From positions 124,001 through 188,000 of the forward strand of contig JAEKNX010000002.1 in NCBI GenBank assembly GCA_016839055.1: a stretch of DNA of 64,000 nucleotides, in the 5' to 3' direction. The translations under genes and the position numbers were made by a program. Origin of the DNA: Spirochaetales bacterium (GTDB lineage Bacteria > Spirochaetota > Spirochaetia > UBA9216). The notes below the pieces were generated by a model, which ran no database searches, was not told the DNA's origin, and worked only from the letters and a program-made list of their open reading frames with translations. Within the stretch, counting starts at the first letter, position 1. Every line of letters starts with the position of its first letter. Below are positions 5,682 through 20,152 of this stretch, piece after piece.

Positions 5682-6992
5682 TTAAATATAGCCGAGATTT
5701 ATGGCTTGTTCAGTCAGCTCCGCTCTGAAGTTGGGATGAGCTATAGCAATAAGGTTGCGTGTTCTTTCTTTGACTGTTCTTCCACGCATGTAGGCAATCC
5801 CATAGTCGGTTACAATATGGTCCACATTGCTTCGGTGCAGGCTAACCGCTGTTCCTTCGGGAAGAGTCGGAACTATGGTGCTTATAGTCCCATTCTTGCT
5901 TGTGGAACCACAGGCAATTATGGATTTCCCAAGACCATCGTATGCTTCCTTGGCACCTACGGCGGTGTCCGTCTGTCCGCCGGTACCGGAAAACTGCAGG
6001 GTTCCTATGGATTCGCTGGCAACCTGCCCGGTAAAATCCACCATCAGGCAGGTGTTTATAGAAACCATTTTTGAGTTCTGTCTGATTATGGCTGGATCAT
6101 TCACCCAGGAACCCCGGCGGAATTCAACAGCCATATTATCATGGAGCCATGAATACAGCTTTTTCGATCCCATTGCAAAGGTGCAGACCATCTTGTCCTT
6201 GAGCAGGGATTTTTTCTTATTGGTAATAACCCCGGCTTCATAGAGTTCCATCATCGAATCAACAAGCATCTCGGTATGAACACCAAGATCCTTCTTATCC
6301 TTCAGCGCCAGGGCGACGGCATTGGGAATATTACCTATTCCGAGTTGTATGGTCGATCCATCCTCGACCAGCTCCGCTATATAACGCCCTATCTTAAGTG
6401 CAGTTTCATCCGGCACAGCGGCGGGCAGGGCGGGGACTTCCTGGTGATGTTCCACAAAAAAATCGACATCCTTAATATTTACATGGGTGTCGCCCAATGT
6501 TCGGGGCAGATTTTTATTTACCTCCAGAATAACCAGATCGGCAACCTCCAGGACATCTTTTTCATAAGTTATACCCAGAGAAAGGGATACGAATCCTTTG
6601 GCGTCCGGCGGGGTGCAGGTTCCCCAGAGTATATTAGGCTTCTTGGCATGAATACGGTCGGTGGCTGCACGGTGAAGCATATTAGGAACGAAGGTTACAG
6701 TCCCTGTTCTGTTTTTTAACGCCAGTCTGGAGCCGGGAGCGTGAAACCAGCTGCATAGTTCAAAGTGCCCCTTCATTTCCGGATTCATGAAAAATTCGTA
6801 GGGCTTAAGGGTAAGCACGGAAAAAACCCTTACGTCCTTAACCTTGTCTTTTACAAGATGGAAATTTTCCATTGAACCCTGGGGCTCGGAAGCACACTGT
6901 CCAACAATAATATCATCATCAGATTTTATCTTTTGTACTGCCTCTTCTATAGTAATCAATTTGCCTTTATACAATTCATCCCAGTTTGTCAT
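5682..6992 (-). CDS. Acetyl-CoA hydrolase/transferase family CoA-transferase 1
   Basis: 436-residue cytoplasmic enzyme of the 4-hydroxybutyrate/butyryl-CoA:acetate CoA-transferase family, which moves CoA from an acyl-CoA to a free carboxylate through a glutamyl-CoA intermediate. The family core LGIGNIPNAVALALKDKKDLGVHTEM is at 217-242; Glu241 is the expected catalytic residue. GTGGQTD later in the chain is also family-typical. I chose the ATG at 6992, preceded by AGGAAGAG and aligning with the start of the paralogue at 18833, over an ATG 18 bases upstream. A promoter with the island's TGA-N8-TCA dyad lies upstream, so it belongs to the acyl-CoA regulon although it faces away from it. Confidence 0.9.
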   Translation of the reverse strand: MTNWDELYKGKLITIEEAVQKIKSDDDIIVGQCASEPQGSMENFHLVKDKVKDVRVFSVLTLKPYEFFMNPEMKGHFELCSWFHAPGSRLALKNRTGTVTFVPNMLHRAATDRIHAKKPNILWGTCTPPDAKGFVSLSLGITYEKDVLEVADLVILEVNKNLPRTLGDTHVNIKDVDFFVEHHQEVPALPAAVPDETALKIGRYIAELVEDGSTIQLGIGNIPNAVALALKDKKDLGVHTEMLVDSMMELYEAGVITNKKKSLLKDKMVCTFAMGSKKLYSWLHDNMAVEFRRGSWVNDPAIIRQNSKMVSINTCLMVDFTGQVASESIGTLQFSGTGGQTDTAVGAKEAYDGLGKSIIACGSTSKNGTISTIVPTLPEGTAVSLHRSNVDHIVTDYGIAYMRGRTVKERTRNLIAIAHPNFRAELTEQAINLGYI

Positions 6993-7076
6993 TACTCTTC
7001 CTTTACTCATTTTTATTAGACTAATTCCGCTTTGAGCTCATGAGGCACCGAATCAAACAAGTATCATATTCATACT

Positions 7077-8005: not shown

Positions 8006-8404
8006 ATGGAGTATCAGGTTGGCCATGGGGAAATATTAAGGCACACCTTCAGTCAGGAGGATTTCGATAGAATCGCCGTCTTAAGCGGAGATGATAATCC
8101 AATTCATGTAGATCCTGATTTCGCGGCTAAGACTCGTTTTAAAAAAACAGTAGCTCACGGAATGCTGCTTTACGGAATGGTAAGCAGGGTAATCGGCGAT
8201 TTTATTCCCGGGGGGGTCCCCATTGAACAGGAGCTGATGTTCCCGGCTCCGACTTACACCGATGAAGAGGTAACTGTCTGGGTTGTTGTGACTAAGGCAC
8301 TGAAGGATGAAAATGCCCTGGAACTTGACACATATGTCATCAAGGAGAACGGTGATCTTGGGTTGAAGGGCCGGGCTGTAATAGGACTGGAGGGGGTAAA
8401 ATGA
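8006..8404 (+). CDS. MaoC-type (R)-enoyl-CoA hydratase, catalytic partner
   Basis: 132-residue hot-dog-fold protein of the MaoC/PhaJ family, which adds water to a trans-2-enoyl-CoA (or removes it from an R-3-hydroxyacyl-CoA). The hydratase motif SGDDNPIH is complete: Asp29 and His34 are the catalytic pair, followed by VDPDFAAKTRFKKTVAHGML as in single-domain members. It starts four bases after the flavoprotein stop with AGGAG nearby and overlaps the next gene by ATGA, so the two MaoC genes are translationally coupled. Confidence 0.9.
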   Translation: MEYQVGHGEILRHTFSQEDFDRIAVLSGDDNPIHVDPDFAAKTRFKKTVAHGMLLYGMVSRVIGDFIPGGVPIEQELMFPAPTYTDEEVTVWVVVTKALKDENALELDTYVIKENGDLGLKGRAVIGLEGVK

Positions 8405-8974: not shown

Positions 8975-9985
8975 ATGGATATCGGTATTATGGGAATTGG
9001 CACATATACTCCGCAAACATATATGAGTGCGGAGGAAATAGCAGAAAAGAGCGGAATTCCCGAAAATATTATTTCCCAGAAATTTGGAGTTAACAGGAAG
9101 GCTGTTCCCGGCCCGGAAGATACTACCAGTGCTCTGGGAATAAAGGCCGCCAGGGCGGCTATTAAAAACGCGGGTATAGTGCCTGCTGAGATCGATCTAA
9201 TTATCTGGTTTGGAGCTCAGCATAAAGATTATCTGTGCTGGCTTGCCGGACTTAAGGTTGCCCATGAAATAGGAGCGGTAAACGCATGGGCTTTTGATCT
9301 TTCGGCCATGTGCGGGTCGCTTATGGCTGGAATTGAGGTTGCCAGGTCGATGATGCTGGGAAATGAAAACATTAATACCGTTCTTCTGGTAAGCGGTTAT
9401 CGCAATGGAGACCTTGTGGACTTTAACGTACCGGAGACCGCCTTCATGTTTGATCTTGGAGCGGGAGGCAACGGTATGGTTCTGAGAAAAGACTACCACC
9501 GGAATACGGTGCTCTGCTCCAGTTTTAAAGGCGACGGTTCATTCTCCGAAGACTGCATAATCAAATACGGCGGGACAAAAAACTGGCCTCTTAAACCTGA
9601 AGATTCTGATAAGATTCATTTTACCGTAGATGACCCTGACAATTTTAAGAAAAAGCTGCTGGAGAAGACTCTGCCGAATTTTTATTTAGTAATTGACCAG
9701 GCGCTAAAAAAATCAGGACTATCACGAAAAGACATAGATTATCTTGCCCTGCTTCATTTTAAAAAATCCGCACATATGGCAATCCTCAAAGAACTGGGTT
9801 TATCGGAGAATCAGACAACCTATCTTGATGATTTCGGACATACCGGTCAGAACGACCAGATAATTTCCCTTGAAGAGGGTTTGACTAAGGGGAAAATAAG
9901 AGAGGGCGATAACGTTGTGCTAGTAGGTGCGGGGCTGGGGTTCATATGGTCTGCGACCGTTATTAAGTGGGGAAACGGACAATAG
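8975..9985 (+). CDS. FabH-fold ketoacyl-synthase-like enzyme KS1
   Basis: 336-residue thiolase-superfamily protein of the KAS III/HMG-CoA-synthase type. Cys113 in FDLSAMCGSLMAGIEVAR is the acyl-carrying nucleophile and His261 in LALLHF matches the FabH active-site His. In place of the third FabH residue (Asn of GNTS) it has GHTGQND (288-294), so the decarboxylating site is altered. FabH enzymes start fatty acids on ACP; this branch, beside CoA-transferases and a MaoC hydratase, more likely handles acyl-CoAs, forming or cleaving a C-C bond. It has a strong AGGAGG site. A second copy is at 11144. Confidence 0.8.
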   Translation: MDIGIMGIGTYTPQTYMSAEEIAEKSGIPENIISQKFGVNRKAVPGPEDTTSALGIKAARAAIKNAGIVPAEIDLIIWFGAQHKDYLCWLAGLKVAHEIGAVNAWAFDLSAMCGSLMAGIEVARSMMLGNENINTVLLVSGYRNGDLVDFNVPETAFMFDLGAGGNGMVLRKDYHRNTVLCSSFKGDGSFSEDCIIKYGGTKNWPLKPEDSDKIHFTVDDPDNFKKKLLEKTLPNFYLVIDQALKKSGLSRKDIDYLALLHFKKSAHMAILKELGLSENQTTYLDDFGHTGQNDQIISLEEGLTKGKIREGDNVVLVGAGLGFIWSATVIKWGNGQ

Positions 9986-10232: not shown

Positions 10233-10260
10233 TTGACAGTCTGTAATCCTGCTCTATAAT
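10233..10260 (+). promoter_or_regulatory. Promoter of the SDR-KS2 operon
   Basis: TTGACA (10233-10238), 16 bases, TATAAT (10255-10260). The operator TGA-N8-TCA begins at the last base of the -10 box. Confidence 0.75.
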
Positions 10261-10273
10261 GAGAGGTGATTCA
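10260..10273. promoter_or_regulatory. Island operator, SDR-KS2 operon
   Basis: TGA-GAGGTGAT-TCA immediately after the -10 box, sharing GAGNTGATTCA with the sites at 12236 and 18790. An ATG at 10259 lies within this element and is not the SDR start. Confidence 0.7.
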
Positions 10274-10330
10274 GTTGATATTTGGAAAAAGGTTAACGAA
10301 TCATCCCAATATAAACACTTAGGAGAAACC

Positions 10331-11128
10331 ATGGAGATAAATGGAAAAGTACTTGTTGTAACAGGCGGGGGAAGCGGAATAGGCGAGGCTGTCGCAAAAG
10401 AGATCTCAAAGAAGGGCGCCAAGGTATTCATCGGAGATATTAATCAGGAAAGCATTGATAGGGTAGTTGCTGAGATAAGAGCCGCCGGAGGTGAGGCCGA
10501 CGGATGCACAGTAAATGTGTATGACGAGGCTCAGGTAGAGGCCTTCATGAAGAATGCAGCCAAGACCTTCGGTTCAGTAAATATCGTTGTACCCTGTGCC
10601 GGTATTATCCGGGACGGCCTTATGATTAACACCGACAGGGAAACCGGCAAGGTAAAGAAGAAGATGAGCCTCGAGCAATTTCAGTCTGTTATAGATATTA
10701 ATCTCAGCGGAACCTTCCTCACTCTACGTGAAGCGGCTGCTATCATGATCGATAACGGCTGGGAAGGCGTCATGTTCACAATTTCATCTGTAAACAAGAT
10801 AGGTCAGGTAGGACAGTTGAACTACTCTTCGACGAAGGCAGCCGTGGGCATGTGGCCGAAGCTTCTTGCCGGCGAGTTTCATATGAAGAAGATAAGCGGA
10901 ATCAGGGTAGTTGGAATTGCACCGGGTTATGTCGGAACACCAATGCTGACCGGAATGAATCAGGATGCTCTTGATGCGATTCTTAAGGATGTACATATCG
11001 GAAGACTGATAGCTCCGGAAGAGATTGCAAAGCTGATGCTTCATGTTGTCGATAATGATGCTCTTGACGGCACAACAATCGAGATTACCGGTGGTGTAAC
11101 CTTCGGTCCCAGGCAGATAGCCAAATAA
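10331..11128 (+). CDS. Short-chain dehydrogenase/reductase, 3-hydroxyacyl-CoA type
   Basis: 265-residue NAD(P)-dependent Rossmann enzyme. TGGGSGIG (11-18) binds the cofactor. Asp36 at the end of strand 2 (FIGDINQ) favours NAD over NADP. The catalytic set is Ser152/153, Tyr165 and Lys169 (YSSTK). The loop usually reading NNAG is PCAG here. The expected reaction is 3-hydroxyacyl-CoA to 3-oxoacyl-CoA or the reverse. The start at 10331 is fixed by AGGAG ten bases upstream. It is followed 15 bases later by KS2, as the remnant SDR follows KS1. Confidence 0.88.
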   Translation: MEINGKVLVVTGGGSGIGEAVAKEISKKGAKVFIGDINQESIDRVVAEIRAAGGEADGCTVNVYDEAQVEAFMKNAAKTFGSVNIVVPCAGIIRDGLMINTDRETGKVKKKMSLEQFQSVIDINLSGTFLTLREAAAIMIDNGWEGVMFTISSVNKIGQVGQLNYSSTKAAVGMWPKLLAGEFHMKKISGIRVVGIAPGYVGTPMLTGMNQDALDAILKDVHIGRLIAPEEIAKLMLHVVDNDALDGTTIEITGGVTFGPRQIAK

Positions 11129-11143
11129 AAACTGGAGTTAACA

Positions 11144-12163
11144 ATGGGAATGAAGTTTGATTCACCTGTTATAGGAATGCGAGGGTGGGGGACTTATATA
11201 CCTGAAACCTTCATGAGTGCCGCAGAGATATCGGAGAAATGCGGTATTCCTGAGAATATTATTATTGAGAAGATCGGGCTTCGAAAGAAACCAATTGCCG
11301 GCAAAGAAGATGCCCCTGCCTACATGGCCACCGAGGCCGCGCGGAAAGCTGTATCTATGGCGGGTATCGATCCTCTTGAAATTGATTGTCTTATTTACAA
11401 CGGCGGCCAGCATAAGGATTATATCTGTTGGCTTGCCGGTCTCAAGATTGCCGATAACATTGGAGCATCAAATGCCTGGTCGTTCGATATGGAGGCTATG
11501 TGTGGTTCGATGCTCTCAGGAATCGAGGTTGCCAGGGGGCTTATAGCCTCGGGAAGATGTAAAACAATTCTTCTTGCAAGCGGGTACCGGAACGGAGACT
11601 TCGTCAGCTTTGACGTTCCAGAGACCACCTTTATGTTTGATCTAGGGGCAGGCGGTTCAGCAGTGCTCCTGCAGTCGGGCTACGAGAAGAATATCCTGCT
11701 TGGCGCATCTTTTAAAGGCGATGGTTCGTTTTCTGAGCTTTGTACGGTTAAACCCGGCGGAGTGAAGCATTGGCCTGTTACCGAAGATGATCTTGATAAG
11801 ATGCATTTTACAATCGATGATCCGGATCTTTTCAAGGAAAAGCTGAAAGGCGTAACTGTGCCGAACTTTTACAAGGTTATTCGTGAAGCGCTTTCTGAAT
11901 CCGGACTTGGTGATGATGACCTGGATTACCTGGGTATTCTTCACTTTAATAGGAGGACGCATGACGCTTTTCTTGACGAGTTTAATTTAAGTCCGGAGCA
12001 GACCTACTATCTCGAGGATTATGGCCACATAGGTCAGAATGATCAGATCATCTCTCTCGAGGAAGGGCTGAAGCTTGGCCGGATAAAGAAGGGTGATAAT
12101 GTCGTCTTTGTAGCGGGCGGAATAGGCTTTGTATGGTCTGCCTGCGTTATCAGGTTTGGTTGA
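11144..12163 (+). CDS. FabH-fold ketoacyl-synthase-like enzyme KS2
   Basis: 339-residue paralogue of KS1, alike along its whole length. Cys120 (FDMEAMCGSMLSGIEVAR) and the His in LGILHF are kept, as is the altered GHIGQND motif near the C-terminus, so both copies should share the unusual chemistry. The N-terminus is a few residues longer (MGMKFDSPVIG). It starts 15 bases after the SDR with GGAG in place. Two synthase-like enzymes next to a MaoC pair and an SDR suggest either two chain lengths or a heteromeric enzyme. A TGA-N8-TCA dyad lies inside its first codons (11151-11164). Confidence 0.8.
   Translation: MGMKFDSPVIGMRGWGTYIPETFMSAAEISEKCGIPENIIIEKIGLRKKPIAGKEDAPAYMATEAARKAVSMAGIDPLEIDCLIYNGGQHKDYICWLAGLKIADNIGASNAWSFDMEAMCGSMLSGIEVARGLIASGRCKTILLASGYRNGDFVSFDVPETTFMFDLGAGGSAVLLQSGYEKNILLGASFKGDGSFSELCTVKPGGVKHWPVTEDDLDKMHFTIDDPDLFKEKLKGVTVPNFYKVIREALSESGLGDDDLDYLGILHFNRRTHDAFLDEFNLSPEQTYYLEDYGHIGQNDQIISLEEGLKLGRIKKGDNVVFVAGGIGFVWSACVIRFG
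11151..11164. promoter_or_regulatory. Operator-like dyad in the start of KS2
   Basis: TGA-AGTTTGAT-TCA followed by CCTGT, close to the site at 18790 (TCACCTGTGATAG). It is in coding sequence and may be chance. Confidence 0.3.
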
Positions 12164-12305: not shown

Positions 12306-13508
12306 ATGAAAAAATTAGTTAAAGGGTTATTTGTTGCTGTACTTTTCTGCGCGATATCGGCAGCGGTATTTGCAGGCGGAGAGCAGGAAGCTGTAACTGG
12401 TGTTACTGAAGATGAAATTACTATCGGAACCTTCCAGGCAATGTCCGGACCGGTCGCGAGTATCGGAGTACCCGTTGCAAACGGACTCAAAGCCTACTTC
12501 AACCATGTAAATGCAAACGGTGGAATATATGGAAGAAAGATTAATCTGATAATTGCAGACGATCAGTTTAATCCCGGAAAGACAACTGTAGAGGTAAAAA
12601 GACTTGTCGAGAGTGACGGTGTTTTTGCCATGGTAGCAGGACTTGGAACTCCGGGTAACCTCGCTGTTATGGATTACCTGAATGAAAGCGGAGTCCCCTT
12701 CGTTTATCAGGCAAGCGGATCTTCACGTCTTGCAGTTCCTCCCAAAGAGTTTGTTTTCCCGGTACAGCCTAACTATCTCGTCGAAGGTAATGTTATGGTT
12801 CGATACCTTGCCGAAGAGAAGAAGGCAAAGAGAATAGCAATCGTCTACAGAAATGCTGAAGACGGAATAGAAGAATATGAATCAGTCAAGAATGCAATAA
12901 AGCTATATGATTCAAAACTTGTTGAAGCGATTGCGATTGATCCTACAGCAACCGACTTTGCAACTGAGATCAATAAACTCAATGCTGCAAAACCCGATGC
13001 TATCATAGTAATGCTTTTCAACCCCCAGACCCCTCCCTTCGTAAAACAGGCGAAGCAGTATGGAATTACCAAGCCTACATTCCTACTGAGCTATCCTAAT
13101 GCGGCTGTTACCTTCATGGTTCTTGCTGAAGAAGCAGCAGAAGATGTTGAGTGTATGTCATGGGTAGACGTTGATTTTACCGATGCAGATTTTGAACCCT
13201 TCCAGATCTATGCGGAAACTCACGGTGAGGGAGAAATTCCGAATGCTTTTGCTGTAGCCGGAATGGTTGCCGCGGAACTTTTTGTTGAAGCTCTTAATGT
13301 TGCAGGTCCTACCCTTACCCGTGACAGTCTTGTGAAGGCTCTTGAATCTTTCAAAGACTGGAACGGCGCACTCGGAAAGGGTATCTCATACAAAACCTAC
13401 AATGAAGCGGACAATACCTGCCGCCTCGGCAAGCAGTCAATGTATGTTCTTAAAGTTAAAGAAGGTGTATGGGTCCGTCATGCCGACTGGATTTATTACG
13501 CAGACTAA
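12306..13508 (+). CDS. Branched-chain-amino-acid-type ABC substrate-binding protein
   Basis: 400-residue periplasmic protein of the LivK/Peripla_BP_6 family. It has an N-terminal signal peptide (KKLVKGLFVAVLFCAISAAVFAGGEQEA) and the family opening DEITIGTFQAMSGPVASIGVPVANGLKAYF near residue 38. The GGEQ sequence after the leader is common in spirochaete binding proteins. LivK-type proteins bind leucine-like amino acids but also aromatic acids, amides and other carboxylates. Here the genes around it point to a carboxylate or an ester of one. It is the first gene of the importer operon, followed by a stem-loop. Confidence 0.88.
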   Translation: MKKLVKGLFVAVLFCAISAAVFAGGEQEAVTGVTEDEITIGTFQAMSGPVASIGVPVANGLKAYFNHVNANGGIYGRKINLIIADDQFNPGKTTVEVKRLVESDGVFAMVAGLGTPGNLAVMDYLNESGVPFVYQASGSSRLAVPPKEFVFPVQPNYLVEGNVMVRYLAEEKKAKRIAIVYRNAEDGIEEYESVKNAIKLYDSKLVEAIAIDPTATDFATEINKLNAAKPDAIIVMLFNPQTPPFVKQAKQYGITKPTFLLSYPNAAVTFMVLAEEAAEDVECMSWVDVDFTDADFEPFQIYAETHGEGEIPNAFAVAGMVAAELFVEALNVAGPTLTRDSLVKALESFKDWNGALGKGISYKTYNEADNTCRLGKQSMYVLKVKEGVWVRHADWIYYAD

Positions 13509-13577: not shown

Positions 13578-14339
13578 ATGCTTGATATAAAGGATGTAAC
13601 GGTAAAATTCGGCGGTCTCGCAGCTGTTAAAGAGATGAATATCACCGTCGAGAAGGGAAAGATTCATTCGCTAATTGGTCCCAATGGAGCGGGGAAAACA
13701 ACCCTTTTTAATGTAATTACCAGGGTGATTCAACCAGTTTCCGGTAGAGTTTCTTTTAAGGGTGACGAACTTTTGGGTTTGCGTGCCGAAGATATTATAT
13801 TCCGGGGAGTAGCCCGAACATTTCAGAACCTTCAACTTTTTCAGGGAAGCAATATTTATGATAATATTTATTCCGGTTGGGTTCATAACTACACGAAGGG
13901 AATGCTCTCTCTTGCCGCAGGTAAACACCTGGCTTTTGGAAAAGATGCGCGAGACAAAATCCATGCAGTTGCCGAGTTGATGCAGATTTCGGGAATGCTG
14001 AAGTTTTATCCGGCCCAGCTTTCCTACGGCGTCTTGAAGCGTGTTGAAATTGCGCGTGCACTTATTTCTGATCCGCAGCTGCTGCTTCTCGATGAGCCGG
14101 CCGCCGGACTTAATATGGATGAAACCTCCGAGCTAAATGATATTCTCGTTAAGCTTAACAGGGATGGTAAAACCATCCTGCTTGTCGAACACGATATGAA
14201 TCTTGTAATGAAGATTTCAGACCGCATAACGGTTATGAACTTCGGTGCCAAGATTGCGGAAGGGAATCCTGTCGAGATCGCAAACAACAGGGAAGTTATC
14301 AAGGTTTACTTAGGGGATGATGAAGATGCTGCAAGTTGA
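13578..14339 (+). CDS. livG: ABC importer ATPase, LivG type
   Basis: 253-residue cytoplasmic ATPase. Walker A is GPNGAGKTT near residue 34 and Walker B LLLLDEPAAGLN near residue 168. The signature is LSYGVLKR, the normal LivG variant of LSGGQ. VEHDMNLVM is the switch-His region. It powers import together with LivF, LivH and the LivM-hydrolase fusion. It overlaps livF by 14 bases if livF starts at 14326. Confidence 0.9.
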   Translation: MLDIKDVTVKFGGLAAVKEMNITVEKGKIHSLIGPNGAGKTTLFNVITRVIQPVSGRVSFKGDELLGLRAEDIIFRGVARTFQNLQLFQGSNIYDNIYSGWVHNYTKGMLSLAAGKHLAFGKDARDKIHAVAELMQISGMLKFYPAQLSYGVLKRVEIARALISDPQLLLLDEPAAGLNMDETSELNDILVKLNRDGKTILLVEHDMNLVMKISDRITVMNFGAKIAEGNPVEIANNREVIKVYLGDDEDAAS

Positions 14340-15015
14340 GGATTTAAAGGTTAATTACGGCCATATCAAGGCAGTGAAAGGCATTTCCTTTTACCTTAAA
14401 AAGGGAGAAATTGTCTCGATTCTTGGTGCAAACGGTGCCGGTAAGACTTCCACCCTCTTCGGCCTGGGCGGAATCGTAAAGCGGGAAGGTAGTGTTTTCT
14501 TCAAGGAAGAGAACATTCCGTCGTCAGCCTCGGTGAAGAGTGCGAAGATGGGACTGATTCTATGTCCCGAGAATCGCAGGGTTTTTCCGGAGCTTCTGGT
14601 TGAGGAGAATCTCCGGATGGGAAGTTTTGCCCGCGGTGAGTTTAAAGAAAGGCTTGCCTTCGTCTATGAGCTTTTTTCGAAACTCAAAGAGCGGCGAACC
14701 CAGACTGCGGGTTCGCTCTCCGGCGGCGAACAGCAGATGCTGGCTGTCGGTCGGTCGCTGATGAGCGATCCTGAGCTTTTGATGCTCGATGAACCTTCCC
14801 TCGGTCTTGCTCCGGTGATTGTAGATGAACTTTTCAGAGTGCTGGTGAAATTGAAGGACAAGATGACAATACTTCTTGTTGAACAGAATGCGCTAAAGGC
14901 TCTGAAGATAAGCGATAGGGCTTATGTCCTTCAAAACGGCAATATCGTCCATTCTGGGACGTCAGCTGAGCTTTTAGCGGATGAATCCGTGAAGAAAGCT
15001 TATCTGGGAATGTAG
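14326..15015 (+). CDS. livF: ABC importer ATPase, LivF type
   Basis: 229-residue ATPase with Walker A GANGAGKTS, signature LSGGEQQ and Walker B LLMLDEPSLGLAP, followed by LVEQNALKAL, typical of LivF. Three in-frame ATGs are available (14317, 14320, 14326). I prefer 14326 because the TAGGGGA site is then about nine bases away. It pairs with LivG as the second nucleotide-binding subunit. Confidence 0.9.
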   Translation: MLQVEDLKVNYGHIKAVKGISFYLKKGEIVSILGANGAGKTSTLFGLGGIVKREGSVFFKEENIPSSASVKSAKMGLILCPENRRVFPELLVEENLRMGSFARGEFKERLAFVYELFSKLKERRTQTAGSLSGGEQQMLAVGRSLMSDPELLMLDEPSLGLAPVIVDELFRVLVKLKDKMTILLVEQNALKALKISDRAYVLQNGNIVHSGTSAELLADESVKKAYLGM

Positions 15016-15025
15016 GAGGACAGCA

Positions 15026-15907
15026 GTGCTTGTATTACAAAGTATAATTTTAGGAATTCCCCAGGGGGCCTTATACGGGCTGATGGGATTTGGAATAGCA
15101 TTGATCTTCAGATCAGTGGGTACGATGAACTTCGCTCACGGAAATGCCGGAATGGTCTGCGTCTTCGTGGCCTTCAGCGTATTTACCGCGACCGGGAGTA
15201 TCATTCTTTCGATTCTGTGCGGAATCATAGTCGGATTTTTACTGGGTGTTATTATCGATAAGGCTCTCATGGGACCAATCAAGCATCTCTCCCATGCCGG
15301 AATGCTGATGATAACCCTCGGACTTTTGATGATCTTTGAAGGAGCCGCCCAGCTGATATGGGGAACGGACTACCAGCAGTTTCCTGAGCTTCTTCGGGGA
15401 GAACCTTTAATCATGAGGCTCGGCGAAAATAAGCTGATTATGCCGCTCAACGATCTGCTGATAACTGCAGTCGCGGTAGCAGTATCAATTATTATCGCAC
15501 TTTATCTTAAGTATGCGAAGCTTGGGATAGCTACCCGTGCCAGGGCTCAGGATCCTATTGGAGCAAAGGTTGTTGGAATTGACACAAACATGGTCGATTC
15601 ACTTGTTTGGGGAATCGGAATATCGATCTCAGTTCTTGTTGGTATCCTAATTGCGCCCAAGACATACATTCATCCTGGAATGATGGGGAACATGCAGATA
15701 TACGGCTTCACCGCCGGAGTACTCGGCGGATTTGAGAGCCTCTTTGGAGCAATAGCCGGCGGACTGATTCTCGGCATCCTGGAGAAGCTCGTTGGTGCCT
15801 ATATTTCGCCGGATTATCAGCTTTCAATAGTCCTCATAATAATAATAATAATGCTGGCCGTTAAACCATCAGGTTTATTCGGTAAAAAATCAAGCGGGAG
15901 AGTATAG
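15026..15907 (+). CDS. livH: ABC importer permease, LivH type
   Basis: 293-residue inner-membrane permease. GALYGLMGFGIALIFRSVGTMNFAHGN near the N-terminus is the LivH hallmark, and about eight hydrophobic segments follow, ending in a poly-Ile helix. The start is GTG at 15026 behind AGGAGGA. Its stop TAG shares its last base with the GTG start of the next gene, so translation is tightly coupled. Confidence 0.9.
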   Translation: MLVLQSIILGIPQGALYGLMGFGIALIFRSVGTMNFAHGNAGMVCVFVAFSVFTATGSIILSILCGIIVGFLLGVIIDKALMGPIKHLSHAGMLMITLGLLMIFEGAAQLIWGTDYQQFPELLRGEPLIMRLGENKLIMPLNDLLITAVAVAVSIIIALYLKYAKLGIATRARAQDPIGAKVVGIDTNMVDSLVWGIGISISVLVGILIAPKTYIHPGMMGNMQIYGFTAGVLGGFESLFGAIAGGLILGILEKLVGAYISPDYQLSIVLIIIIIMLAVKPSGLFGKKSSGRV

Positions 15908-17613
15908 TGAAGAAATTTGTATATCTTGCGGTAATCGGGCTGGTCCTGGGCCTGTTGTTCATCTCAGAATCTTTCATGCTCATGATTTTCTCGTCAATAA
16001 TAATTTTTGGAATTGCCGCCCTCGGGCTTAATATCCTGAACGGTTATACCGGACAGGTTTCAATAGGACACGGCGCCTTTGTGGCCGTCGGTGCCTATGT
16101 AACATCGGTAATGAGTATGAACTTTCATACTCCGTTTATTCTGAACATCCTTGTTGTAATTGTCTGTGCAGGACTTCTCGGTTTTTTGATTGGGCTTCCT
16201 GCCCTTCGGCTGAAAGGCTTCTATCTGGCAATCGCGACGATGGCTTTCGGAGTTGCTATTCAGCAGCTGTTTGCGGCAATTCATATCTTTGGCGGTCATG
16301 GGGGACTCTATGGAATACCACGGCTGATTAAATCAGAGTTCGGGATGTATCTCTTTAATCTTGGTTTTTTTATTCTAATGTATTTTATTGCCGATGTTAT
16401 AACATCATCACCGGTCGGACTTAAATACCGGATGGTCAGAGACAGTGAAACAGCCTCAAAGGCTTACGGAATAAAACTTTCATCGGTCAAACTCAATGCC
16501 TTCGTTGTTAGTGCCATCTACGGCGGCATCGCCGGGGCTTTGTATGCGCATACTATTACCTACATCTCCCCTGCAGACTTCGGTCTGGGACTTTCAATTA
16601 ATCTTCTTTCGATGATTATCATTGGAGGAATGGCAACGCTGGAAGGCGGACTAATCGGTTCGGTAATAATTACCGGGCTGCCGTTTCTGTTTTCAAGAAC
16701 CAAGGTCCCAATGTCAATAATTATCGGAGCACTGATCATTATTTTCGTTCTCTTCTTTCCGCGCGGACTCTCTTATGGTCTGAAGATGGCTTTCCTCAAA
16801 TATCTGCAGATGCCTCTTGTCTGGTTCAGGAAACTACGGGCACGCCGAGCAAAGAGAGATGGGGATTGGGTTGAGGTAAACGGAAAGAAAATTTTCTATA
16901 CAAGCAGGGGAGAGGGCAAGCCGATTGTCATGCTTCATGGAAATCTGGGATGCGGTCTCTGGTATTCCAGGGTCATGGATCTGCCGGGATATAGAACTAT
17001 TGCCCTTGATATGGTAAACTTCGGCAGATCCGATCGTATCAAGGATTCTGAGATGAGTTCTTATGCGCTTTACCTGAGAGGATTTATCGAGAAGCTGGGG
17101 TTCAAGGACGTCTTTCTTGTTGCACACTCACTAGGGGGCGCTGTTGCCATGGAGATGGCATTTGATGCACCGGAACTCGTATCCAGGCTTCTGTTGATTG
17201 ACCCCTGTCCGATAGACGGACTTCACACGCCCGAGGAGCATTATCCCTTCCTGGAACTGTATAAATCGAATCCGCGTATGCTCAAGAAGTCGCTTCTTGC
17301 CATTGCTCCACATATTGGAGATATGAAGTTTTTGAACAGTCTTACTGATAATGCATATCTTATGAATAGAGATTCGTTTATTGCGCATCCCCGCGGTCTT
17401 GATAAGGTAAACCTGACAGAGCGTGCCAAGAGCTTCAAGAAACCAGTATTAGTTGTTGCCGGAGCCGAGGATATTCTTATCAATCGTGAAATGGCTGAGG
17501 CTACAGCCGATGCTCTCGGAGGATCGGTGTTGATATTAGAGAATATTGGACATTCGCTGATGGTTGAAGACCCGGACTTGTTCAAGGAGGTTCTTCTTAA
17601 TTTTGATGAATGA
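15907..17613 (+). CDS. LivM permease fused to an alpha/beta hydrolase
   Basis: 568 residues, about twice the normal LivM length. Residues 1-300 are a complete LivM permease (LNILNGYTGQVSIGHGAFVAVGAY, LPALRLKGFYLAIATMAFG, IGGMATLEGG). A short Arg/Lys-rich linker (309-318) leads to an alpha/beta hydrolase at 320-568: HGN oxyanion strand at 344-346, Ser408 in AHSLGG, Asp522 in AGAEDIL and His549 in GHSLMVEDP, a complete triad. By the positive-inside rule the hydrolase faces the cytoplasm. It would hydrolyse the imported compound, or a CoA ester of it, at the transporter. The frame is continuous with no stop or internal start signal between the parts, so this is a real fusion in the sequence given. 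Confidence 0.9.
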   Translation: MKKFVYLAVIGLVLGLLFISESFMLMIFSSIIIFGIAALGLNILNGYTGQVSIGHGAFVAVGAYVTSVMSMNFHTPFILNILVVIVCAGLLGFLIGLPALRLKGFYLAIATMAFGVAIQQLFAAIHIFGGHGGLYGIPRLIKSEFGMYLFNLGFFILMYFIADVITSSPVGLKYRMVRDSETASKAYGIKLSSVKLNAFVVSAIYGGIAGALYAHTITYISPADFGLGLSINLLSMIIIGGMATLEGGLIGSVIITGLPFLFSRTKVPMSIIIGALIIIFVLFFPRGLSYGLKMAFLKYLQMPLVWFRKLRARRAKRDGDWVEVNGKKIFYTSRGEGKPIVMLHGNLGCGLWYSRVMDLPGYRTIALDMVNFGRSDRIKDSEMSSYALYLRGFIEKLGFKDVFLVAHSLGGAVAMEMAFDAPELVSRLLLIDPCPIDGLHTPEEHYPFLELYKSNPRMLKKSLLAIAPHIGDMKFLNSLTDNAYLMNRDSFIAHPRGLDKVNLTERAKSFKKPVLVVAGAEDILINREMAEATADALGGSVLILENIGHSLMVEDPDLFKEVLLNFDE

Positions 17614-18736
17614 AAATACACCCCTTAGTACAAAAGAAAAGCTAATGCTCTCAGCCGTGGCTTTGTTCTCTGAGAACTGGTATGACGCAATATCTGTCGC
17701 CGAGATATGCCGGAACGGCGGACTTTCCAATGGTGTTTTTTACAGATACTACAAAGACAAGGAAGTATTGTTCCGGGAAATTCTCGATGGATTTCTTGAG
17801 GTTATCGAAACGAGAATGAGTAAAATAAGCGGTGCCGATGTAGAGGAACGTCTAATCTCTTTTTACGGATTCATCCTTGAGAGTAATATCGACGATATTG
17901 CCTACATCAACATCTTCCGGGAAGGGGAGTATAAGTTTCCTGAATACGAGCAGAGACTCCGGGTGATTTACACCGAGGCCCTTAGACGTGTATACAGGCG
18001 AACCGTCACCGTGGCAGAGTATCTTTTTATTGTCGGAAGCGTGCGATTTTTGCTCAGGCGACCCTGTTTTGATGAACAAAAGATAAGCGGCGAATATTTG
18101 AAGGATTTAGTTTACAACGGCATATTTGAATGCTCTTCGGAGATCGACTTGAGCTGTCTGAACGTAGATCTGCCGCCGGCAGTCGATAATGCCGATGAGG
18201 CTGATACCCGGACGAAATTGATTCTCTCAGGTAAACAGCTTATAGCCGAAAACTCTTTCTATAAGGTTAATATCTATGAGATAACAAGGAAGGCTGGTTT
18301 TGCGGTGGGAACCTTTTATATCAATTTTAAGAGCAAGGAAGATCTTTTTCGGGAAGTAGTAGTATATCTTGGAAAACAGCTCCGGCATTATATATCATCC
18401 AATCTCGGGGAGAATCTCAGCCGTATTGAAAGGGAAATACAGGGGTGGATGTTGTTTCTCAAATATTTTGAGACACACATTCAGAATTACCAGTTAGTAC
18501 GCGAGGCTGAGTTTGTAATAAGGGATACGGCAAAAGAGTATTATAATAAATTTGAGAAGGGCTACCTGAGACAATCAGGCGGTTTGAGACCGGATGATGA
18601 GGCCGTCGCCGCGAACTTTCTGATAGGTATAGCTCACTTTCTTGGAATTGAGCATTTTTTCAGTAAGAATATTGAAGATCCCCGAAAGGTAATCGAAGAG
18701 CTATCGGGGTTAATCTGCCGCGGCGTTAAGAAGTAG
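17606..18736 (+). CDS. Tandem TetR-family regulator with two DNA-binding units
   Basis: 376 residues, nearly double a normal TetR protein. Unit 1 has the helix-turn-helix at 28-50 (ISVAEICRNGGLSNGVFYRYYKDKEVLF). Unit 2 has a second one at 221-244 (VNIYEITRKAGFAVGTFYINFKSKEDLF). Each is followed by its own helical ligand-type domain. TetR proteins work as dimers, so this chain could act as a built-in dimer with two different halves. I chose ATG 17606, which overlaps the LivM fusion by eight bases; an AGGAGG lies 15 bases upstream. The likely target is the TGA-N8-TCA dyad of the island and the likely inducer an acyl-CoA, both inferred. Confidence 0.85.
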   Translation: MNENTPLSTKEKLMLSAVALFSENWYDAISVAEICRNGGLSNGVFYRYYKDKEVLFREILDGFLEVIETRMSKISGADVEERLISFYGFILESNIDDIAYINIFREGEYKFPEYEQRLRVIYTEALRRVYRRTVTVAEYLFIVGSVRFLLRRPCFDEQKISGEYLKDLVYNGIFECSSEIDLSCLNVDLPPAVDNADEADTRTKLILSGKQLIAENSFYKVNIYEITRKAGFAVGTFYINFKSKEDLFREVVVYLGKQLRHYISSNLGENLSRIEREIQGWMLFLKYFETHIQNYQLVREAEFVIRDTAKEYYNKFEKGYLRQSGGLRPDDEAVAANFLIGIAHFLGIEHFFSKNIEDPRKVIEELSGLICRGVKK

Positions 18737-18832: not shown

Positions 18833-20152
18833 ATGACCAGTTGGGAAGAAAAGTATAAGAGGAAATTATCGAGCATCGAAGATGCTATAAAATCATTACC
18901 GCCGAAGGCTACGGTGATAGTCGGAATGGCCGCTATGGAGGCTCAGGGACTTCTAACTCATGTTCATGAGTATGAGGAGCATTTCGAGTATTTGAAGGTC
19001 GGTTCCTGTTTGAACCTTGGTGATTTCCCATTTTGCCAGGAACAAAAGTATGAAGGAACATTCTGTAATGATAACTGGTTTTTCGGTCCTGCGACTCGGA
19101 AGGCTGCAAAACTTGGATATAAAATTGTAGATTATATGCCGAATAACCTCCACCGGGCGGGTTATGAAAAAGCGCTGGCAGAGAAGGAAGACGGAAATTA
19201 CCTCGTTTTCTGGGGAGCAGTGACTCCTATGCAGGCAAAATCAGGCTACTTCAATCTGGGAATATCAAACGTTTATGAGCATGATGTAATGCAGCTTGCC
19301 GATAAGATAATTCTCGAGGTCAATCCCAGGGTTCCCCATATGCACGGAGAGACTCAGGTTCATATCGATCAGGTTGACGCCATAGTTGAATACGAGAATC
19401 CTCTGCCGACAATTCCCATTCCCCAGCCGAACGAAGTAGAAGAGAGAATCGCTGCGCACATTGCAGAGCTTGTTGATGACGGCTCGACCCTTCAGATAGG
19501 CATCGGCGGAATACCCAATGCCGTGGCAAAGCTTCTGAAGGACAAGAAAGATCTGGGAGTTCATACCGAGATGTTTACCGAATCGATGATAGAACTCTTT
19601 GAGGAAGGGGTAATTACCAACAGAAAGAAGAACTTCTGGCCTGGAAAATTTGTATGCACCTTCGCGATGGGAACACAGAATATGTACGACTGGATAGACA
19701 ATAATCCCGGCGTCCTCGTTCTAAAGGGGCGTTACGTGAACGATCCCTACGTGATCGCCCGCAACGATAATATGGTGAGCATTAATACAGCCATCTCGGT
19801 AGATTTAACCGGGCAGGTCTGCTCGGAATCAATCGGGGCAACCCAGTTTTCCGGAACAGGTGGACAGCTTGATACCCATCGCGGCGCAATAATGAGCAAT
19901 GGCGGAAAGGGAATAATTGCTCTGCGCTCCACGGCAAAAGGCGGTACAATATCCACTATTACACCAACTCTTCTAAGCGGGTCTATAGTATCTGTTCCAA
20001 GGCATGACCTTGATACTGTTGTCACAGAGTACGGTGTGGCACGGCTGCGCGGCCGGACTGTCAGTAAGCGGACTGAGGCCCTTATCTCAATTGCGCACCC
20101 GGATTTTCGTGAAGAACTCAGGGCTGCGGCGAGAAAGATTGGACATATCTGA
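18833..20152 (+). CDS. Acetyl-CoA hydrolase/transferase family CoA-transferase 2
   Basis: 439-residue paralogue of the enzyme at 5682. The core IGIGGIPNAVAKLLKDKKDLGVHTEM (222-247) places the catalytic Glu at 246, and FSGTGGQLD is kept. The start region MTSWEEKYKRKL mirrors the paralogue's MTNWDELYKGKL and follows GGAGG. The two copies differ enough to suggest different acyl partners. It probably activates the imported carboxylate using acetyl-CoA or another acyl-CoA. It is a single-gene unit with an operator at its promoter. Confidence 0.9.
   Translation: MTSWEEKYKRKLSSIEDAIKSLPPKATVIVGMAAMEAQGLLTHVHEYEEHFEYLKVGSCLNLGDFPFCQEQKYEGTFCNDNWFFGPATRKAAKLGYKIVDYMPNNLHRAGYEKALAEKEDGNYLVFWGAVTPMQAKSGYFNLGISNVYEHDVMQLADKIILEVNPRVPHMHGETQVHIDQVDAIVEYENPLPTIPIPQPNEVEERIAAHIAELVDDGSTLQIGIGGIPNAVAKLLKDKKDLGVHTEMFTESMIELFEEGVITNRKKNFWPGKFVCTFAMGTQNMYDWIDNNPGVLVLKGRYVNDPYVIARNDNMVSINTAISVDLTGQVCSESIGATQFSGTGGQLDTHRGAIMSNGGKGIIALRSTAKGGTISTITPTLLSGSIVSVPRHDLDTVVTEYGVARLRGRTVSKRTEALISIAHPDFREELRAAARKIGHI

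Follow-up and report, generated by a model that had tools for sequence, protein, structure and literature searches.

A LivM permease that continues, within one reading frame, into an alpha/beta hydrolase is an old, conserved family of proteins in Spirochaetota. We describe it from a stretch of 64,000 nucleotides of a Spirochaetales genome, referred to as the window, in which the fusion gene completes an importer operon. Uptake and hydrolysis are probably coupled in this system, a reading that we hold with modest confidence.

The fusion gene and its operon

The window contains the following features of relevance:

8006..8404, + strand, MaoC-like hydratase
8975..9985, + strand, FabH-like 3-oxoacyl synthase (NF005308)
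10259..11128, + strand, short-chain dehydrogenase (SDR), similar to FabG/acetoacetyl-CoA reductase
11144..12163, + strand, second FabH-like 3-oxoacyl synthase (NF005308)
12306..13508, + strand, LivJ-type binding protein (Peripla_BP_6), amino-acid-binding residues replaced
13578..14339, + strand, LivG ATPase
14317..15015, + strand, LivF ATPase, from the translation, assigned by position and similarity
15026..15907, + strand, LivH permease
15907..17613, + strand, LivM-hydrolase fusion gene, 568 aa, GTG start, no internal stops
15907..16767, + strand, LivM permease domain, residues 1-287 (PF02653; type II ABC importer fold)
16768..16863, + strand, helical basic linker, residues 288-319, with an LQxP motif
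16864..17610, + strand, alpha/beta hydrolase domain, residues 320-568, from Pfam profiles, alignment and structure model
17128..17130, + strand, codon TCA of the nucleophile Ser408, in an AHSLG elbow
17470..17472, + strand, codon GAT of Asp522 of the triad
17551..17553, + strand, codon CAT of His549 of the triad
17606..18736, + strand, tandem TetR regulator with two TetR_N domains
18833..20152, + strand, acyl-CoA:carboxylate CoA-transferase

The original prediction of one continuous frame of 568 codons, joining LivM to a hydrolase with a complete triad of Ser408, Asp522 and His549, was borne out by the open reading frame and its domains. Both domains score well over their Pfam cut-offs: BPD_transp_2 covers residues 24-279 (E 3e-38; 131.8 bits against a cut-off of 26.8), Abhydrolase_1 covers residues 338-439 (E 5e-21) and Abhydrolase_6 residues 340-560 (E 9e-16). 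The three triad residues are unchanged throughout a seven-sequence alignment of hydrolases as well as in eight aligned fusions. The nucleophile elbow reads AHSLG in the window and GHSLG in most relatives. Judged by its residues, the fused domain is predicted to be a catalytically complete serine hydrolase. The linker of about 32 residues that precedes it contains ten lysines or arginines and a single acidic residue (D/E).

The operon holds a complete importer gene set in the order J-G-F-H-M. The TetR regulator gene starts inside the fusion gene and shares its last 8 bases, as it does in the closest relative (G001; L030 7463-7470), and a regulator with two TetR domains is found near the hydrolase in most of the spirochaete loci examined. 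The window encodes two CoA-transferases of the same family, one on the minus strand (5682-7010) and one downstream of the regulator on the plus strand (18833-20152). Together with the paired FabH-like synthases, this suggests duplicated and diverged steps of a pathway.

Distribution and conservation

Searches covered 393 genomes at the level of the phylum Spirochaetota and 395 genomes at the level of the class. The check proposed with the original prediction, namely a search for long LivM proteins that carry a hydrolase domain, yielded nine further complete fusions in Spirochaetota, so that ten are known including the window. These belong to seven genera, five families and two classes. The closest is encoded by MAG SZUA-414 (G001; contig QKCC01000312, loci L009 and L030), a member of the same genus as the window: it likewise has 568 residues, is 71% identical and lies in an identical gene order. 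Between these two proteins the permease is the best conserved region (82% identity), followed by the hydrolase (61%) and the linker (52%); silent sites are saturated in this comparison, which makes dN/dS unusable, including as a measure of selection on the linker. The phylum and class searches added complete fusions in G218, G371, G373, G523 and G469, as well as in G076, G087 and G097, which belong to another class. A probable fusion in G383 is interrupted by the end of a contig. Where compared, the fusions are 41-71% identical to that of the window over the full length. The linker is constant in length to within one residue across the complete fusions, and its LQxP motif is kept, reading FQIP in G076. 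The LivM parts form a single clade (100/100 support). The results at phylum and class level refute the idea, considered at first, of a recent join confined to one genus.

Within the 395 genomes, no unfused LivM of this clade was found past E 1e-60; one match, the G383 gene, stops at a contig edge. The control sample, 251 genomes of the phylum to which a Chloroflexi MAG belongs, returned no fusions, only matches to LivM alone at E 1e-50. Among plasmids, no record carried both parts and none covered 80% of the query; viral contigs likewise yielded no fusion. Phyla beyond Spirochaetota and the control phylum were covered by an exact-peptide scan, which detects close relatives only.

The original prediction had allowed for a sequencing error between the two parts. 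The genome behind the window is indeed a draft in 43 contigs, and its closest relative is a MAG; however, that MAG, assembled independently, encodes a fusion of the same length at 71% identity. A hidden stop codon with a new start behind it is ruled out by the nine other complete fusions from separately assembled genomes, and the chance of an artefact of any kind, be it a missed stop or a misassembly joining two genes, is now negligible.

Free relatives of the hydrolase

Many spirochaetes carry a hydrolase of the same clade as a separate gene (35-47% identity), among them G004, which belongs to the same genus as the window. The gene for the free hydrolase mostly ends a Liv operon or sits near one. 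The permeases of these operons form a separate clade that shares only some 25% identity with the fused LivM. Both types of locus mostly share the FabH-like synthases, the short-chain dehydrogenase, the tandem TetR regulator, the CoA-transferase and a thiolase. Given this common neighbourhood and the separate permease clades, the hydrolase accompanies the pathway and has been paired with two different importers, in one case by fusion. The link between hydrolase and importer thus is recurrent, and the repeated sharing of a locus supports a functional connection between import and hydrolysis. Tethering itself is not essential, since many relatives manage with a free hydrolase.

With respect to the origin of the join, the equal length of the linker suggests that the hydrolase was fused once. 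The tree of the hydrolase alone is poorly resolved; it needs two changes and mildly rejects a single fused clade (p-AU 0.0465).

Other hydrolase genes are found beside Liv genes as well. On contig C10 of the same genome as the window (L036 7882-10605), a different alpha/beta hydrolase gene, only 26% identical, directly precedes the LivH and LivM genes of a further Liv operon; the pairing of hydrolases with Liv genes may therefore have arisen repeatedly. In G523 and G407 a second, distantly related alpha/beta hydrolase gene adjoins the fused or free hydrolase (L106 9842-10783; L071 9075-9884).

A possible nested start in some fusions

Four of the ten fusion genes (G076, G097, G087 and G218; L062 9085-10815, L063 9457-11187, L064 9593-11341, L067 9731-11464) contain an in-frame ATG exactly at the position where the free hydrolases start, taken to be the ancestral start of the hydrolase. 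In all four it is preceded by an AGGAG-like Shine-Dalgarno sequence, a feature of only about 4% of the other internal in-frame ATGs in these loci. The four fusions are 55-76% identical to one another, hence the site has survived divergence; three of them come from one genus, and the set counts as about two independent cases. The internal ATG is absent from the window and from G001, G371, G373, G523 and G469. Fusions with this site may additionally make a free hydrolase from what would be a nested gene. Our broadest proposal is tentative: a conserved class of ABC importers would combine uptake and hydrolysis in one polypeptide, with a nested start giving certain members a separate, free hydrolase as well.

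Structure models and membrane side

The AlphaFold model of the whole fusion has a mean pLDDT of 93.4 and a linker without disorder; with a pTM of 0.78, it is uncertain in the model where the hydrolase lies with respect to the pore. Modelled alone, the permease part (pLDDT 90.0) matches BtuC best (Z 13.4; 4.7 A over 250 residues), and its best eight matches are all permeases of ABC importers, of the BtuC, MolB, FhuB, BhuU and PsaC kinds. A sequence search of the PDB with LivM gave no match.

The original prediction placed the hydrolase at the cytoplasmic side, a position that gains support from three observations: the basic linker, the BtuC-type fold of the permease, and other fusions in which the LivG ATPase is attached to the C-terminus of LivM (LivM-LivG, L101; LivH-LivM-LivG, L098). 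The latter triple fusion (L098 571-3336) is a protein of 921 aa from G764 of the Chloroflexi-phylum sample. As LivG occupies the same end elsewhere and the linker is basic, we take the C-terminus of LivM, and hence the hydrolase, to be cytoplasmic.

The hydrolase model matches the PHB depolymerase PhaZ best (8ynv; Z 33.5, 1.8 A over 253 residues). Several esterases and haloperoxidases score within one Z unit, with serine hydrolases matching at Z about 33, and the fold therefore cannot name the substrate.

Substrate and mechanism

In the LivJ partners of all nine fusion or probable fusion loci compared, Gly and Tyr replace Thr102 and Glu226 of LIVBP, the residues through which LIVBP binds leucine at its amino and carboxyl groups. 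Their loss makes an amino acid an unlikely ligand, and the binding protein sequences suggest that a non-amino-acid compound is imported. The enzymes of the cluster (CoA-transferase, short-chain dehydrogenase, FabH-like synthases and MaoC, with a thiolase in relatives) suggest a product of the short acyl, hydroxyacyl or ketoacyl type.

The architecture and the gene context lead us to infer that hydrolysis is coupled to import, that the substrate is a short acyl or hydroxyacyl ester or lactone, and that the products enter acyl-CoA metabolism; this is the best-supported mechanism and somewhat likelier to be right than wrong. LivJ would capture a small compound, other than an amino acid, that contains an ester, lactone or similar bond, and LivH, LivM, LivG and LivF would pump it into the cell. 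The tethered hydrolase would cut the incoming compound at the exit of the pore, keeping the import gradient steep (trapping), and would yield a carboxylic acid, probably a hydroxy or keto acid. The CoA-transferase, the short-chain dehydrogenase and the FabH-like enzymes, together with the thiolase in relatives, would convert the released acid to central acyl-CoAs. The identity of the imported compound with the substrate of the hydrolase, and its trapping, both suggested already by the original prediction, are presumed on these same grounds.

The strongest competing reading, which we consider unlikely, holds that tethering serves only to fix the location or the amount of the hydrolase, which would act on a later intermediate, for instance as an acyl-CoA thioesterase, or on a membrane lipid, rather than on the incoming compound. 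It would fit a neighbourhood rich in acyl-CoA enzymes and the fact that untethered forms of the enzyme serve the same cluster. However, the CoA-transferase speaks for the activation of free acids and against the destruction of thioesters, and the transported compound is the likelier target given that the hydrolase is repeatedly paired with two different importers.

Import-coupled hydrolysis also has a more specific form, to which we assign a still smaller chance: oligomers or esters of 3-hydroxybutyrate, or of a comparable hydroxy acid, would be imported and cut to 3-hydroxybutyrate, which would then be activated by the CoA-transferase, oxidised by the short-chain dehydrogenase and split by the thiolase. 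The enzymes of the cluster are compatible with this route, PhaZ 8ynv is the top structural match, and the best NCBIfam model of the hydrolase domain is that of the intracellular short-chain PHA depolymerase (NF050089). The score of 98 bits is nevertheless far under the cut-off of 300 for this model, the esterases lie within one Z unit, and FabH-like enzymes are unnecessary for the use of 3-hydroxybutyrate. On the basis of the same score, filing the hydrolase as a PHA depolymerase was rejected.

A mainly ligand-sensing or regulatory role of the domain within the importer is very improbable: some alpha/beta hydrolases do act as receptors, and D14 and its like match the fused domain at Z about 29, yet the triad is invariant across all aligned fused and free copies, and the free copies accompany the same metabolic genes.

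Significance and relation to known systems

The usual view of ABC importers is that the cargo arrives in the cell unchanged. A conserved hydrolase built into the permease would make an ATP-driven importer a natural example of vectorial metabolism, in which transport is coupled to chemistry. As the gene cluster occurs both with and without the fusion, the two forms offer a ready comparison for the benefit of tethering, and the cluster marks an undescribed pathway of uptake and breakdown in environmental spirochaetes. The expectation that this design has no described member holds within the open-access literature, where we found no description of a LivM-hydrolase fusion. The architecture is apparently new as a combination, consisting of a known type of importer and a known type of enzyme.

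The nearest system is the LivFGHMJ/HAAT importer (LivM, PF02653), which shares the J-G-F-H-M set, the BPD_transp_2 domain and the type II fold with the system in the window. The latter differs by the C-terminal hydrolase of LivM and by a LivJ without the Thr102 and Glu226 of LIVBP. In the LivM-LivG and LivH-LivM-LivG fusions LivM is likewise extended at its C-terminus by a cytoplasmic domain; these add the importer's own ATPase, whereas the fusion described here adds a metabolic enzyme. For the hydrolase domain, the short-chain intracellular PHB depolymerase PhaZ is the closest named relative by profile and fold. It is a free enzyme, and the fused hydrolase scores far below the family cut-off. 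Finally, the lysophospholipid transporter LplT and the acyltransferase Aas are separate proteins in many bacteria and apparently encoded by one ORF in some (PMC11416262). There too, a transporter is joined to an enzyme that acts on its cargo (PMC11416262); LplT is a flippase and not an ABC importer, Aas acylates rather than hydrolyses, and the proteins are unrelated to those of the LivM-hydrolase fusion.
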